Positions 49,537 through 63,518 of a stretch of 64,000 bases of DNA are shown here, one piece after another. Under the pieces are notes generated by a model. The model had not been told where the DNA came from, searched no databases, and saw only the letters and a list, made by a program, of their open reading frames with translations. The translations under genes and the position numbers were made by a program. Source of the DNA: Vulcanimicrobium alpinum (GTDB taxonomy: Bacteria; Vulcanimicrobiota; Vulcanimicrobiia; Vulcanimicrobiales; Vulcanimicrobiaceae); assembly GCF_027923555.1 (NCBI RefSeq), contig NZ_AP025523.1:1364001-1428000 (forward strand), given 5' to 3'. Numbering within the stretch: the first letter of the stretch is position 1; each line of letters opens with the position of its first letter.

Positions 49537-50617
49537 ACCGGGACGCGGCGTCGCGACGACGCTGCTGCGCGTCGCCTTTGCGGCGATTTTCGGGACGACG
49601 GGCTTTCTGCTCGGCCGCGAAGCCTATCTCCACCTGTTCTCGCTGCACGTTGCGAGCGAGTTTTGGCAGCTCACCCTGCTCATCGCGGCTCCGGTCGCGG
49701 GCGCGCTCCTCGGCGTGCTGATCGTCCCGCTCGTGCAATCGTTCTTCGTCGCCGAACTGCATCAGGTCGAGCGCGCGATCGACCGGCTCGCGCCGGGCGA
49801 ACTCGTCGGCGGCGCGATCGGCCTGGTGACGGGGCTCGTCGTCGCGTTCCTGGTGAAGAGCGTGCTGTTCGAGTTCATCACGTTCGCCGGCCCGACCGGC
49901 GGCTACATCGCGATCGCGCTGTACCTCGTGCTGAGCCTGTTCGCGGCGTTTCTCGGCGCGCGGGTCGGCGCCAAACAGCGCGTCGCTCTCTCGGGGATGG
50001 CGGCTTCGGCGAGCGGGAGCGGCGGCGAACCGAAGGTGCTCGATACCTCGGTGATCATCGACGGTCGCGTCCTCGACATCGTGCGCAGCGGCTTTCTCGA
50101 AGGACCGCTGCTGCTGCCGCGCTTCGTGCTGCGCGAACTGCACCTGATCGCCGACAGCTCCGATCCGCTCAAGCGCACGCGCGGACGGCGCGGGCTGGAA
50201 CTGCTGCGCAAGCTCCAGGACACGATCGCGATCGAGATCGTCGAGCGCGATCCGGAAGAGATCGCGCAGGTCGACGCCAAGCTCGTGCGCCTCGCCCAGG
50301 AGCGCGGCGCGAAGCTCGTCACGAACGACTTCAACCTCAACCGCGTCGCGCAAGTCGAAGGCGTGAGGGTGCTCAACATCAACGAGCTCGCGAACGCTGT
50401 GAAGCCGGTGCTGCTGCCGGGCGACGAACTCCGGGTCGCGGTGATTCGCGAAGGACGCGAGACGCACCAGGGCGTGGGGTATCTCGACGACGGTACGATG
50501 ATCGTCGTGGAGAACGGCCGGCGGCTGATCGGCGAAACGGTCGAGGTGGCGGTGACCAGCGCGCTGCAGACGAACGCGGGGCGGATGATCTTCGCGCGGC
50601 CGAAGGTGCGCGCGTGA
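49508..50617 (+). CDS. membrane-anchored PIN-TRAM domain protein (YacL-like)
   Basis: A 369-residue protein with about four membrane spans (residues about 15-155), then a PIN nuclease domain (VLDTSVIIDGRVLDIVRSGF, later AKLVTNDFNLNRVAQVEGV with metal-binding Asp residues) and a C-terminal TRAM RNA-binding domain (GYLDDGTMIVVENGRRLIGE). This is the YacL architecture, probably an RNA-cleaving or RNA-binding membrane protein. It precedes ispD-ispF as in Bacillus. The ATG at 49508 lies inside the end of hemW. Confidence 0.93.
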   Translation: MSVVRSSPTEPGRGVATTLLRVAFAAIFGTTGFLLGREAYLHLFSLHVASEFWQLTLLIAAPVAGALLGVLIVPLVQSFFVAELHQVERAIDRLAPGELVGGAIGLVTGLVVAFLVKSVLFEFITFAGPTGGYIAIALYLVLSLFAAFLGARVGAKQRVALSGMAASASGSGGEPKVLDTSVIIDGRVLDIVRSGFLEGPLLLPRFVLRELHLIADSSDPLKRTRGRRGLELLRKLQDTIAIEIVERDPEEIAQVDAKLVRLAQERGAKLVTNDFNLNRVAQVEGVRVLNINELANAVKPVLLPGDELRVAVIREGRETHQGVGYLDDGTMIVVENGRRLIGETVEVAVTSALQTNAGRMIFARPKVRA

Positions 50618-51567
50618 TCTGGGGCGCGGTGATCGTCGCCGCCGGCCGAGGGACGCGCTTCGGGCGCCCCAAACAGCTCGTGGAGCTCGCAGGACGGCCG
50701 ATGATCGCGTGGTCGGTCCTGACGTTCGCCTCGATGCCGGAGATCAGCGAGATCGCGATCGTCACCGAGCCCGAATTCATCGAACGGATCGAAGCGATCG
50801 CGCATGCGGCGGTGCGGCACGCGACGGTGCGCGTGGTGCGCGGCGGCGACGAGCGCCAAGCCAGCGTGCGCGCCGGGATCGAGGCGCTCGGCGACGGCGT
50901 CGCAGCGATCCTCGTGCACGACGGCGCGCGTCCGCTGGTGCAGGCGGTCGACGTGCGCGCCGGTATGCGGCCGGTGCAGCCCGGGATCGCATCGCTGCTC
51001 GCGACGCCGGTCGTCGACACGGTCAAGGTCGTCGCCGACGGGAAGGTGACGCGAACGCTCGACCGCGCCGAACTCTGGGCCGCGCAGACGCCGCAATTCG
51101 CCACCGCGCGCGACCTGCGCCGTGCGCACGCCGACGCCGTCCGCCACGGTACGCCCGCGGCGACCGACGACGCGGCGCTCCTCGAGCGCGCGGGCCTCGA
51201 CGTCCTCGTCGTCCCCGGCGCGCCGGAGAACTTCAAGGTGACGCTGCCGACCGATCTGGTGCGGGCCGAAGCGCTGCTGCGCGAGCGCGCACCGCACGCG
51301 CTCACCGATGAAGAGGTGCTGCTGGTCGAGTGCTACGTCGATCCGGGCGCCGTCGACGCCGTGCTCAGCGAGCTCGAAGCGCGCGATGCGCGCATCGACG
51401 AGATCGATCGCGAGCTCCCCGGCGCAAACGTCGTGCGCGCCTACGCGAGCTCCGCCGCGCTGCGCGGTTTCGGCGCGCGCCTCCACGCGCTCGCCGGCGA
51501 GCAGGCCGTGTTCACCGCGCACCTCTCGCATTTGGCGCCGCGGATCGCGGTCGACCGCGAGCATTGA
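50614..51567 (+). CDS. ispD: IspD cytidylyltransferase fused to an EF-G domain V-like module
   Basis: A 317-residue protein. Residues 1-225 are IspD (MEP cytidylyltransferase): VIVAAGRGTRFGRPKQLVEL, VLVHDGARPLV in the form ILVHDGARPLVQAV, and TDDAALLERAGLDVLVVPGA. IspD proteins normally end there. Residues about 228-317 continue as VECYVDPGAVDAVLSELEAR through VVRAYASSAALRGFGARLHA and FTAHLSHLAP. This follows the pattern of the ferredoxin-like C-terminal domain of elongation factor G (VPLSEMFGYATQLRSLT in that family). The role of the added domain is unknown. GTG start overlapping the previous stop; ispF follows with TGATG overlap. Confidence 0.9.
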   Translation: MIWGAVIVAAGRGTRFGRPKQLVELAGRPMIAWSVLTFASMPEISEIAIVTEPEFIERIEAIAHAAVRHATVRVVRGGDERQASVRAGIEALGDGVAAILVHDGARPLVQAVDVRAGMRPVQPGIASLLATPVVDTVKVVADGKVTRTLDRAELWAAQTPQFATARDLRRAHADAVRHGTPAATDDAALLERAGLDVLVVPGAPENFKVTLPTDLVRAEALLRERAPHALTDEEVLLVECYVDPGAVDAVLSELEARDARIDEIDRELPGANVVRAYASSAALRGFGARLHALAGEQAVFTAHLSHLAPRIAVDREH

Positions 51568-52076
51568 TGCACGAACCGAAAGCGCGCGTCGGCCACGGCT
51601 TCGACGCGCACCGGCTCGTCGAGGGACGGCCGTTCATCTTGGGCGGCGTGCGCGTGCCGTTCGAGAAGGGCCCGCTCGGACACAGCGACGCCGACGTGCT
51701 GACGCACGCGGTCTGCGACGCCCTGCTCGGCGCGTGCGCGCTGGGCGATTTGGGCGCGCACTTCCCCGACACCGACCCGCAGTGGAAGGACGCCGACTCA
51801 CTGCGGCTGCTCGCCGCATGTCACGAGCTGGCGGTGCGCAAAGGCTGGACGATCGCGAACATCGATGCGACCGTCGTCGTGCAGCAGCCGAAGCTCGCGC
51901 CGTTCGTCGGCGCGATGCGCGATTCGCTCGCCGACGTGCTCGGGCTCGAAGTCGAGCGGATCAGCGTGAAGGCGAAGACGAGCGAGGGGATGGGCTACAC
52001 CGGTGACGGTACCGGGATCGCGGCCTACGCGGTCGTGCTGATGGAAGCGCTGGGCGGCAAGGAATCCGCTATTTGA
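51567..52076 (+). CDS. ispF: 2-C-methyl-D-erythritol 2,4-cyclodiphosphate synthase
   Basis: A 169-residue trimeric enzyme of the MEP pathway. Zinc ligands lie in RVGHGFDAHRLVEG and LGHSDADVLTHAVCDALLGA; FPDTDPQWKDADS and KAKTSEGMGYTGDGTGIAAY are also typical. It overlaps ispD by one base. Last gene of the plus-strand operon that starts at 44935. Confidence 0.97.
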   Translation: MHEPKARVGHGFDAHRLVEGRPFILGGVRVPFEKGPLGHSDADVLTHAVCDALLGACALGDLGAHFPDTDPQWKDADSLRLLAACHELAVRKGWTIANIDATVVVQQPKLAPFVGAMRDSLADVLGLEVERISVKAKTSEGMGYTGDGTGIAAYAVVLMEALGGKESAI

Positions 52077-55340: not shown

Positions 55341-55472
55341 ATGCCCGTTGCACTTTTCGAACGACCCCTGGTCCTGAGCGCCGGTCAGCCGCCCGGTGAC
55401 GGCACGCGGAACATCGACGCCGAAGAGCCCGAGACGCCGCCCGAGGGCGAGGACGAAGAAGAGGGCTCATAG
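55341..55472 (+). CDS. 43-residue acidic peptide of unknown function
   Basis: The frame reads MPVALFERPLVLSAGQPPGD, then ends in an EEPETPPEGEDEEEGS tail. GGGAAAGGGAAA lies upstream of the ATG. It precedes the GltX-like gene by 14 bases and is divergent from the LuxR gene. Too short to classify. Confidence 0.4.
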   Translation: MPVALFERPLVLSAGQPPGDGTRNIDAEEPETPPEGEDEEEGS

Positions 55473-55486
55473 CGCCGCATCCCGTC

Positions 55487-56092
55487 GTGGATGACTCGAC
55501 CTTCGCATCGTCGCCCAGGGAGCGCGCCCACGCGCTGCTCGCCGAGCGGATGCAGGCGCACCGGCTGTTGGAAGATCCGATCCCGGCGGCGGCGCATCGT
55601 TGGATCGACACCTTCCTCGATGCGTATCCCGGCGGCTTCTCGAGCGTCCGCGACGCGCTCGCCGCGGTCGCCGAGCTCCGCGACGAAGCCGTGACCCTCC
55701 CCGCGCTCGAACTCGAGCGCCTCCGTCATCGCCAGGTGCTGTTCTTTCTCGACGCCGTCTCGCAATATGTCGACGACCAGCCGGAGCTGCGCGGCCTCCC
55801 GCTCGATGCCGACCTCACGACGATCGGGAGCGAATTCGGGCTTGCGGCAGCGGACGCGCTCGGCGCGGTGCGGATGGCGCTCACCGGCAAAGCGGACGGC
55901 CCGCCGCTGGAGTTCCTCTTTCCTCTGCTCGGGCACGACCGCATCATGATCCGCATCGGTGCGGTGAGTTCGCACATCCTGCACGGCCGCGGACTGGAGC
56001 CGATCAAGTTCGGCCCCGGCGGCGTCCCCTTCGAAACGATCCAGCCGCAACGGCCCGGCGCGGAAACCGGCGAGCCGCACGAGGGGTCCTAG
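55487..56092 (+). CDS. stand-alone GltX anticodon-binding-like domain (gltX remnant)
   Basis: A 201-residue protein that resembles only the C-terminal, anticodon-binding part of glutamyl-tRNA synthetase. It has ALGAVRMALTGKADGPPLEF followed by LFPLLGHDRIMIRIGAVSSH, which matches the end of GltX (RVALTGR, then a LGxxRxxxRI segment). The class I catalytic domain (HIGH and KMSKS motifs) is missing. The position between ispF and cysS is exactly where Firmicutes carry gltX. It may be a remnant or a repurposed tRNA-binding domain; the intact length and clean frame favour a maintained protein. GTG start. Confidence 0.72.
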   Translation: MDDSTFASSPRERAHALLAERMQAHRLLEDPIPAAAHRWIDTFLDAYPGGFSSVRDALAAVAELRDEAVTLPALELERLRHRQVLFFLDAVSQYVDDQPELRGLPLDADLTTIGSEFGLAAADALGAVRMALTGKADGPPLEFLFPLLGHDRIMIRIGAVSSHILHGRGLEPIKFGPGGVPFETIQPQRPGAETGEPHEGS

Positions 56093-56098
56093 CACTCC

Positions 56099-57597
<1,499 letters not shown>

Positions 57598-57619
<22 letters not shown>

Positions 57620-61469: not shown

Positions 61470-62097
61470 TTGAAGAAAGTTTACCCCAAACCAGATCCCG
61501 TTGCCAAGCCCGAGCGCGACTTTTCAGTCGAACTGGACGAATTGTGCCGGGCCAAAGTCGCCGAACTCGTCCAATCGTACCTCGAAGCGGAGGTCGATGA
61601 GTTACTCGGCCGACTCCGTTACGAACGCCGAGACGGCAAGCGCATTGGTTTCCGCGATGGGCACGACCCCGAGCGGATGGTCACCGCGAGCATCGGCCCT
61701 ATCGCGATCCGCCGTCCGCGCGTTCGCGGCGTTGCGCACGAGTCAGCGCTGATCCCCAAATACCGACGTCGGCTTCCGTCGATCGACAAGACGATCCATC
61801 AGCTGTGGATCGAAGGCCTCGCGCATCGCGATTTCGAGCCGACGCTGCGCGGATTACTCGGCGCAGAAGCTCCGCTTTCGGCTTCGACGATCGCTCGCGT
61901 GAACGCCGAGTTCGGCGCGGAGTACGACACGTGGAAGAAACGCCGCCTCCCCCCGTGTCAAGATAGAGTGGTACCGGTAGCATAGGGAGTTTTTTGTACA
62001 ACGTTCGTCGCAGCAGCAGAGCTGTGGATAACGGGGATACTGTGGAAAACATCCGGAACGATGCAAAGCACGCGGGGGCGAGAAAGTCCTGCAACAG

Positions 62098-62517
62098 ATG
62101 CAGTCCTCGAACGGAACCGTTTCAACGGAAATCAAGGCAACCAGTTCACCCCAAAAACCTCAGCGACGTCGGTTCTCCGCCGCCGAGAAGCTGCGCATCG
62201 TGCGCGAGGCTGATGCGCGTCCAGCCGGCACGATCGGAGCGTTTCTCCGGCGCGAAGGTATTTACTCATCGCAGCTCTATGCCTGGCGAAGGCAGCGCGA
62301 TCAAGGCGACCTCGATCCAGGTGCGGTGCGCCAACGTGCAAAAGCCAAAATGCAAGCCGACGAGGTTGCGCAGCGGCTCAAAGAACTCGAGCGGGAAAAC
62401 CGGAAACTCCGTCGCCAGTTGGCGCGCGCCGAGCTCATAAACGATATCCAAAAAAAATTTGCGGGGCTCCTGGGCGTCGATCTGGAGAGCCCCGAGACGA
62501 ACGAGAACGCAGAATGA
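62098..62517 (+). CDS. IS3-family transposase OrfA (HTH and leucine zipper)
   Basis: A 139-residue DNA-binding subunit. The helix-turn-helix is RRRFSAAEKLRIVREADARP, then EGIYSSQLYAWRRQ. A coiled coil with Leu/Arg heptads (AQRLKELERENRKLRRQLAR) follows at about 95-115. It recognises the IS ends. It overlaps orfB by four bases (ATGA), so orfB is reached by coupling and not by an evident slippery site. GTG/ATG choice: ATG at 62098. Confidence 0.9.
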   Translation: MQSSNGTVSTEIKATSSPQKPQRRRFSAAEKLRIVREADARPAGTIGAFLRREGIYSSQLYAWRRQRDQGDLDPGAVRQRAKAKMQADEVAQRLKELERENRKLRRQLARAELINDIQKKFAGLLGVDLESPETNENAE

Positions 62518-63518
62518 GTGCGGCGCTGGAACTTGCCCACGAGATTCCGCAGCGCGCGTTGTGCACTGCAGCGGGCATCAGCCGCTCGACGCTGCGGCGC
62601 CGCCTAAACGGCACGCCGGAACGACTTCCGTCCGTGATCTCGCGCCGGCGCTCGAGAAGAGCACTGAGCGAACACGAGCAAGCTGAGGTGCTCGCGGTGC
62701 TGCATGGCGAGCGGTTTGCCGATCGCGCGCCGGCGACGATCCACGCGACCTTGCTGGACGAAGGTATCTACCTGTGCTCGGTGAGCACGATGTACCGCCT
62801 GCTGCGAGCAAACGCGGAGGTGCGCGAACGTCGCCGTATTGCACGTCATCCGGAGTACCGTAAGCCCGAACTGGTGGCCACCGGTCCGCGTCAAGTTTTC
62901 TCGTGGGATATCACGAAGCTGCGCGGCCCGCACCCGGGTGAGTGGTTCTCGCTGCTGGTGATGCTCGACATCTTCAGCCGGTTTGTCGTCGGCTGGATGC
63001 TCGTGCATCGGGCCAACGCCGAACTCGCACGGCACTTCATCGCGCAGACGCTGGAACGTGAAGGCATCCAGCCCGGGCACGCGATCGTTCACGCCGATCG
63101 CGGCGCGGAGATGACGGCGCAACCCGTGTGCGCCCTGATGGACAAGCTCGGCGTCGTACGTTCGCACAGCCGTCCGCACGTTAGCGACGATAACCCCTTC
63201 TCGGAGTCCCAGTTCCGCACGCTGAAGTACCATCCCGAATTCCCCGATCGATTTGGGTCGTTTGAGCACGGGCACGATTTCGTTGGTGAGTTCATGACCT
63301 GGTACAACAACGAGCACCGGCACTCCGGAATCGCGATGCTGACGCCGGCAATGGTGCATCACGGCCAGGCGGACCGCGTGCTCGCCGCCAGACACGACGT
63401 GATGCTCGCGGCTTACCGCGCCAAACCGGAACGATTCATCGGCGGATCGCCAAAGCGGATCGTGTTACCGCCCGCGGTGTGGATAAATCCGCCCGCTCAC
63501 GACGGGGTCGCCGTGTAG
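62514..63518 (+). CDS. IS3-family transposase OrfB (DDE integrase)
   Basis: A 334-residue catalytic subunit. An N-terminal HTH_21-like region (APATIHATLLDEGIYLCSVS, then TMYRLLRAN) precedes the integrase core. The DDE triad is visible in VFSWDITKLRG, AIVHADRGAEM and PFSESQFRTLKYHPEF. The C-terminal TWYNNEHRHSGIAMLTPAMV matches IS3 proteins. No internal stop, so it is probably functional. Confidence 0.94.
   Translation: MSAALELAHEIPQRALCTAAGISRSTLRRRLNGTPERLPSVISRRRSRRALSEHEQAEVLAVLHGERFADRAPATIHATLLDEGIYLCSVSTMYRLLRANAEVRERRRIARHPEYRKPELVATGPRQVFSWDITKLRGPHPGEWFSLLVMLDIFSRFVVGWMLVHRANAELARHFIAQTLEREGIQPGHAIVHADRGAEMTAQPVCALMDKLGVVRSHSRPHVSDDNPFSESQFRTLKYHPEFPDRFGSFEHGHDFVGEFMTWYNNEHRHSGIAMLTPAMVHHGQADRVLAARHDVMLAAYRAKPERFIGGSPKRIVLPPAVWINPPAHDGVAV

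Follow-up and report, generated by a model that had tools for sequence, protein, structure and literature searches.

A lone glutamyl-tRNA synthetase anticodon-binding domain conserved at the gltX locus of Vulcanimicrobium and its relatives

Gene content of the locus

We analysed a 64,000-nucleotide stretch (hereafter, the window) of the genome of the cultured Vulcanimicrobium alpinus WC8-2, a single contig (C1) of 3,508,363 bp, which is the length of the published chromosome (PMC9758169). The window spans positions 1364001–1428000 of this contig. At the site of interest, the gene order is ispD, ispF, the target ORF, cysS and rlmB, followed by a sigma-factor-like ORF. This is presumably also the order of the Bacillus gltX region, which we take to run through ispD, ispF, gltX, cysS, rlmB and a sigma factor. 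We refer to the second glutamyl-tRNA synthetase (GluRS) of this locus as GltX2, and to its free anticodon-binding domain as ACB2. The features are as follows:

50614–51311, + strand: ispD, an upstream marker of the locus, kept there in relatives
51567–52076, + strand: ispF, marking the upstream side of the ancestral gltX site, kept there in relatives
52540 to about 55335, − strand: LuxR-type ATPase regulator gene of 2.8 kb between ispF and the target (tblastn of regions)
55342–55473, + strand: 43-aa ORF with an acidic C-terminus, just 5′ of the target (ORF inspection of congeners)
55487–56092, + strand: ACB2, GTG start, 201 aa (ORF list, Pfam, fold and orthologues at the locus)
55511–55522, + strand: probable deletion junction within ACB2, residues 9–12 (PRER) (comparison with full-length genus members)
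55532–55963, + strand: anticodon-binding helical core of ACB2, residues 16–159, with 8 predicted helices (median omega 0.28)
55964–56056, + strand: conserved C-terminal tail of ACB2, residues 160–190, near-invariant in 20 relatives (omega 0.12)
56099–57619, + strand: cysS (Pfam tRNA-synt_1e, E 2e-109), the next gene of the presumed operon

The first-pass annotation had described a gene tightly packed against cysS and lying between ispF and cysS, where Firmicutes keep gltX. The packing is indeed tight, as the earliest in-frame cysS start lies 7 nt past the stop of the target. The gene order also stands, but the target does not adjoin ispF, from which it is separated by the LuxR-type ATPase gene and the 43-aa ORF, and the organism itself belongs to the Eremiobacterota/Vulcanimicrobiota and not to the Firmicutes. 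The LuxR-type gene follows ispF in all genus members examined and is absent from the nearest outgroup genus (G028); its insertion may have cut gltX2 off from the upstream operon.

Several further features of the region were observed. ORFs of 41–45 aa with the same layout and place as the 43-aa ORF occur in four congeners (G003, G005, G008 and G010), and the 43-aa ORF may encode a small protein associated with the LuxR-type regulator. cysS directly follows the GltX2 gene in the window, G005, G009 and G010, and a spacer of 600–700 bp separates the two in other relatives. This spacer is probably cysE, which seems to be gone from this locus in some members of the genus. Farther downstream, an IS3-like OrfA/OrfB pair (62098–63518, + strand) lies beside an apparent truncated IS256-like transposase ORF (61470–61985, + strand), both named by eye.

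The target ORF encodes a whole anticodon-binding domain

Pfam-A recognized Anticodon_2 (PF19269) alone in the target, aligning residues 39–158 with positions 15–138 of the 141-position profile (E 3.6e-5; 24.6 bits against a curated cut-off of 23.6). The NCBIfam model gltX_bact matched only over profile positions 359–464 of 470, scoring 17 bits where the cut-off is 290. Sequence searches of the PDB with the domain returned GluRS matches, all of them weak, and we therefore turned to comparison of folds. AlphaFold2, run on an alignment of 20 relatives, predicted eight helices with a mean pLDDT of 80 and left the last ~35 residues poorly defined. Searching this model against the PDB with Foldseek, we found that the first 41 matches were all GluRS, four of them at E ≤0.001, with class I LysRS next. 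VIA-align superposed the model on the non-discriminating GluRS of T. elongatus with Z 14.6 over 166 residues, a value to be read against the Z of up to about 13 that a common arrangement can reach in a helical domain; matches outside GluRS and LysRS stayed at Z ≤4.9. Overall, residues 1–168 match GluRS C-terminal domains. Given the extent of the Pfam match and the fold, the target is a whole anticodon-binding domain and no mere scrap.

The earlier proposal that the protein is related solely to the C-terminal end of GltX is thus borne out by the profiles and by the fold. The target belongs to the PF19269 family, scoring over the curated cut-off with a matching fold. It is not a GluRS enzyme, lacking the PF00749 domain with its HxGH and KMSKS-type motifs, and PF00749 is absent from the locus; together with the gene order, this agrees with loss of the catalytic half in place at the ancestral gltX site, as first suggested. 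Synteny, alignment with eroded and intact full-length forms, and the catalytic tree of those forms identify the target as an orthologue of GltX2.

Relatives carry GltX2 in intact, eroded, reduced and absent states

The ACB2 protein matched 43 of 60 related genomes. A profile search found matches in 87 of 149 genomes of the phylum, though what it matched in f2, f3 and more distant families was the C-terminal end of ordinary full-length GluRS. Both the sister family (f2) and the class relatives (f3) keep a full GltX at the ispF–cysS site and a second GltX elsewhere. Within the window's own family (f1), nearly all examined genera have the ACB2 domain, the exceptions being one large genus (g44) and a few others; its forms share 60–77% identity and have open frames across many genera.

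Four states of the gene can be distinguished in this family. Long GltX2 with intact catalytic motifs occurs in five genomes: G014, G015, G031, G035 (split over contigs) and G100 (with a frame change within the domain). The short form, which the first-pass annotation had proposed to look for in relatives, is present at the same locus in many of them: domain-only GltX2 occurs in the window, G005, G009, G028 and about 17 more genera among the first 60 genomes. The gene is wholly absent from G023, G027, G030 and genus g44. Finally, eight congeners (G001–G004, G006–G008 and G010) have a full-length GltX2 with eroded catalytic motifs. KLSKR is broken in all eight, in several ways (KLSAR, KLSEG, KLSRQ in two, a deletion and others), and residues of the Glu/AMP site are altered among them. 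All eight also lack the putative zinc-binding segment, as does G015, whose motifs are otherwise intact. This segment is deleted in some other bacterial GluRS too, always beside GlnRS or GluRS2 (PMC4381286), so that its loss alone is no proof of inactivity.

The residues PRER near the start of the target match the stretch that precedes the domain in full-length relatives, PRERYHALLAERM, and mark the probable junction. In G005, the N-terminus of the short form (MDPSALDLDRPLPV; LDLDRPLPV) resembles the start of GltX2 in full-length congeners (LNLDRPLRV), a possible scar of a deletion that was internal and in frame. Short forms differ in their N-terminal leaders, which would fit separate deletions. 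Searches of the window, G005 and G009 with two congener catalytic halves gave no convincing relics of the lost half beyond the junction. A FASSP/FAPSP match at the start of the target was considered as a deletion scar and set aside as too short to count. Viral contigs yielded no relative.

The state of GltX2 follows the type of the other GluRS

The full-length gltX that the first-pass annotation had supposed elsewhere in the genome does exist. The sole PF00749 catalytic domain of the genome belongs to a full-length GltX with its own anticodon domain, at C1:3070998–3071948 on the − strand; we call this type GltX1a. As this was the only match of the PF00749 profile search, a GlnRS domain is absent from the window genome; GatB occurs there, as in all 20 genomes tested. 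The indirect route to Gln-tRNA is therefore obligatory in this organism.

GltX1a of the window genome is most similar to the GluRS of Pseudomonas, a resemblance that suggests a horizontal origin without proving it, and has Arg at the position of Thermus Arg358. The surviving GluRS is of a Pseudomonas/Thermus-like type, unlike that of the outgroup families, which we call GltX1b; likely, an essential GluRS was replaced by transfer across most of a family. GltX1b occurs in members of f2 and f3 and in the five genomes with intact GltX2 (G014, G015, G031, G035 and G100). Among the typed genomes, which are part of the set, intact GltX2 occurs solely alongside GltX1b, and every genome with eroded, short or absent GltX2 has GltX1a, these states occurring solely alongside it.

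GltX1a and ACB2 do not form a split GluRS. In such an enzyme, the anticodon domain would be missing from the catalytic chain and the two chains would always be found together, whereas GltX1a brings an anticodon domain of its own and genus g44 has it without ACB2. The presence or absence of HemA and GatB does not track that of ACB2. Being present in every genome tested, GatB does not discriminate whether ACB2 belongs to a glutamine transamidosome, a complex with GatCAB, GluRS and tRNA-Gln.

The catalytic half was lost repeatedly

A tree of IspD, IspF, CysS and RlmB, all taken from the same locus, implies seven independent irreversible losses of the catalytic half, and still seven when forks below 90 are collapsed. 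In a focused tree, the window groups with G010, which has the long form (support 92/88). AU tests rejected the grouping of the window into one clade with G009 (p 0.032), G005 (p 0.019) or both (p 0.012). A single clade of all GltX1a genomes was likewise rejected (p 4e-7). In the tree of catalytic halves, the GltX2 proteins of the family, eroded and intact together, form one clade next to f2 and apart from GltX1a and GltX1b. In the domain's own tree (144 columns), short and eroded forms group apart from the intact ones, which lie outside them, and, contrary to the flanking-gene tree, the eight eroded forms come together. A conservative reading of this tree, made without computation and counting each open fork as one event, still gives about three losses. 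Judged from these sequence trees, loss of the catalytic half is repeated, with fewer than seven events if the domain tree is preferred.

A helix and a tail predate loss of the catalytic half

Two elements set ACB2 apart from canonical GluRS. The tail motif H[IL]LHGRGLEPIxxGPxGxPFExI is near-invariant across 20 relatives, predicted to be disordered and absent from canonical GluRS. The helix PALELERLRxRxVLFFLDxVxQYVD (residues 72–96) is common to the members and is not conserved in the canonical GluRS of the phylum. Core positions such as VRMALTG and LLGHDR are common to ACB2 and GluRS. Both helix and tail are present in the intact GltX2 of G014 and G035 and, less completely, in that of the f2 member G040, so they predate loss of the catalytic half. 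The tail also occurs on the intact GltX2 of G100. It is lost in G013, and the intact GltX2 of G015 and G031 has none; these two may have lost the tail or may be copies of another history.

With the tail as query, no second copy was found in 11 searched genomes. A weak match in G030 was rejected, as it lies in an antisense frame within another gene, and the window genome gave one match at 772389 (E 0.17).

ACB2 is under purifying selection

We estimated omega as NG86 medians within the genus and G028; such values are rough in GC-rich genomes, and neighbouring genes were measured identically. The domain had a median of 0.28, the tail of 0.12 and the eroded catalytic half of 0.38, compared with 0.34 for cysS, 0.21 for rlmB and 0.14 for ispF. 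Purifying selection on ACB2 is therefore seen both in the domain, at a level like that of cysS and rlmB, and in the tail. Among short forms alone, omega was 0.23, as low as in housekeeping neighbours. With omega of 0.12–0.28 and a frame that is open here and in most relatives, ACB2 resembles no pseudogene, which would have a broken frame or omega near 1. Relaxation of the eroded catalytic half is barely above cysS, so this half may still serve as structure.

History and possible role of ACB2

The states of GltX2 and their partners point to a history in four steps. The ancestor had two GluRS, GltX1b and GltX2, the latter at the ispF–cysS site. The anticodon domain of GltX2 acquired its conserved residues and tail while the enzyme was still intact. 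In genomes with GltX1a in place of GltX1b, the catalytic half of GltX2 is eroded or deleted, or the whole gene is lost, and the anticodon domain with its tail is usually retained. The sequences show these four steps, which together we regard as highly probable. The first-pass annotation had offered two alternatives, a maintained protein or a remnant left behind once a second gltX had assumed its role. The two hold together instead: the anticodon domain and tail are kept by selection, and GltX1a assumed the role of the enzyme.

As to function, we infer an adaptor on three grounds: the fold is kept, constraint is strongest in the disordered tail, and the gene has persisted after the loss of catalysis. 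The tail and the new helix surface would dock ACB2 onto a partner. The likeliest partner would lie in the indirect Gln-tRNA pathway, that is tRNA-Gln, the GatCAB amidotransferase or GltX1a, because this was the pathway of the parent enzyme and because GatB is present and GlnRS absent. Against such a role, GltX1a occurs without ACB2 in g44, G023, G027 and G030, where ACB2 is thus dispensable for charging tRNA-Gln. That ACB2 is a maintained non-catalytic protein, produced by in-place reduction of GltX2 and acting as an adaptor in the Gln-tRNA pathway, is as a whole a tentative statement, to which we assign a probability of roughly 0.38.

The strongest rival is a maintained protein–protein module, such as a regulator or scaffold reusing the anticodon fold, with a partner unrelated to tRNA charging. 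The charge of the domain speaks for it, with a net of −5 to −12 in the family, whereas most GltX1a anticodon domains are neutral to basic. The site equivalent to Thermus Arg358, which reads the third anticodon base, is also free to vary in ACB2 (G, E, A or R), and the invariant residues cluster in the helix of residues 72–96 and the disordered tail, the former not conserved in canonical GluRS. We had considered loss of Arg358 as a mark of a tRNA-Gln-specific domain, and dropped this since the position varies in ACB2 and GltX1a has Arg. Against a module of this kind, Arg129 and the VRMALTG motif are nearly invariant, and the tail arose on an intact enzyme, which favours an enzyme-linked role. 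Arg129 aligns with Thermus Arg435, a residue that presumably acts in anticodon binding, in the anticodon-arm part of the domain. On these sequence features, the acidic core and the variability at Arg358 speak against a simple reading of the anticodon, and the invariant Arg129 would favour some contact with tRNA; the signs are indirect and go both ways. A partner outside tRNA charging is a serious possibility, and a protein-only role is about as likely as one with tRNA or GatCAB as partner.

Much less probable is a trans-acting specificity subunit, required by GltX1a to accept tRNA-Gln, so that the pair would effectively be a split enzyme. GltX1a is closest to the GluRS of Pseudomonas, which like that of Thermus discriminates against tRNA-Gln (PMC3927822), it has Arg at position 358, and the window genome has no GlnRS domain. 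However, there are bacteria in which Arg358 is not decisive (PMC3927822), GltX1a has a complete anticodon domain of its own, and g44 and three other genomes have GltX1a with neither ACB2 nor a second intact PF00749 enzyme. We find it even less credible that ACB2 is an autoregulator that binds RNA and controls the operon it shares with cysS, through an mRNA structure like an anticodon arm: ACB2 is closely linked to cysS in the window, but this link was inherited from gltX and is far older than the reduction, and the domain is acidic. A neutral remnant heading for loss is the least credible reading and is refuted for the family as a whole, for although the gene is wholly absent from g44, G023, G027 and G030 and the tail is lost in G013, the housekeeping-like omega among short forms, the still lower value of the tail and the open frames at 60–77% identity over many genera all speak against it.

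Comparison with known synthetase paralogs

Synthetase fragments with second jobs are known. HisZ, AsnA-like proteins and other synthetase-derived paralogs use a piece of a synthetase in a non-charging role, and are mostly derived from the catalytic domain and of class II; ACB2, in contrast, is a lone class I anticodon domain. We know of no conserved bacterial family consisting solely of a class I synthetase's anticodon domain, and open-access literature, queried with a limited wording, yielded no description of one.

The C-terminal domain of bacterial GluRS (PF19269; T. thermophilus residues 323–468) has the same fold over its full extent, and relatives keep the full-length gltX at the same locus; ACB2 differs from it in having no catalytic half, an extra tail, an acidic character and a newly conserved helix at residues 72–96. 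In Glu-Q-RS (YadB), too, one half of a GluRS paralog persists by itself in another function, but as a mirror image, since this protein retains the catalytic half and has no anticodon domain. The inactive second GluRS of the Thermotoga type, a duplicate without charging activity beside an active copy (PMC3927822), is comparable to the eight eroded GltX2. That copy is still full length, whereas ACB2 has lost the catalytic half altogether and the remainder is conserved. The tRNA-Gln-specific GluRS2 of Helicobacter and Acidithiobacillus (PMC3927822, PMC9976931) belongs to a two-GluRS arrangement like the ancestral pair of GltX1b and GltX2, and by analogy a division of labour between these two is likely. 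GluRS2 in those bacteria is an active enzyme, and ACB2 is non-catalytic.

Implications

ACB2 is a real, conserved reduced paralog, undescribed as far as we found, and a synthetase-derived accessory protein. It may even represent a new kind of translation accessory factor, one that would have gained its role while fused to an active GluRS, whose catalytic half could then be discarded repeatedly once another GluRS had arrived; we regard this wider reading as doubtful. The phylum holds the entire series of intact, eroded, reduced and lost forms, and the order of events can therefore be read from it, with the features of the domain coming first and catalytic loss beside a replacement enzyme later. 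Because one owner of the gene, Vulcanimicrobium alpinus, is in culture, the function of ACB2 is directly testable.
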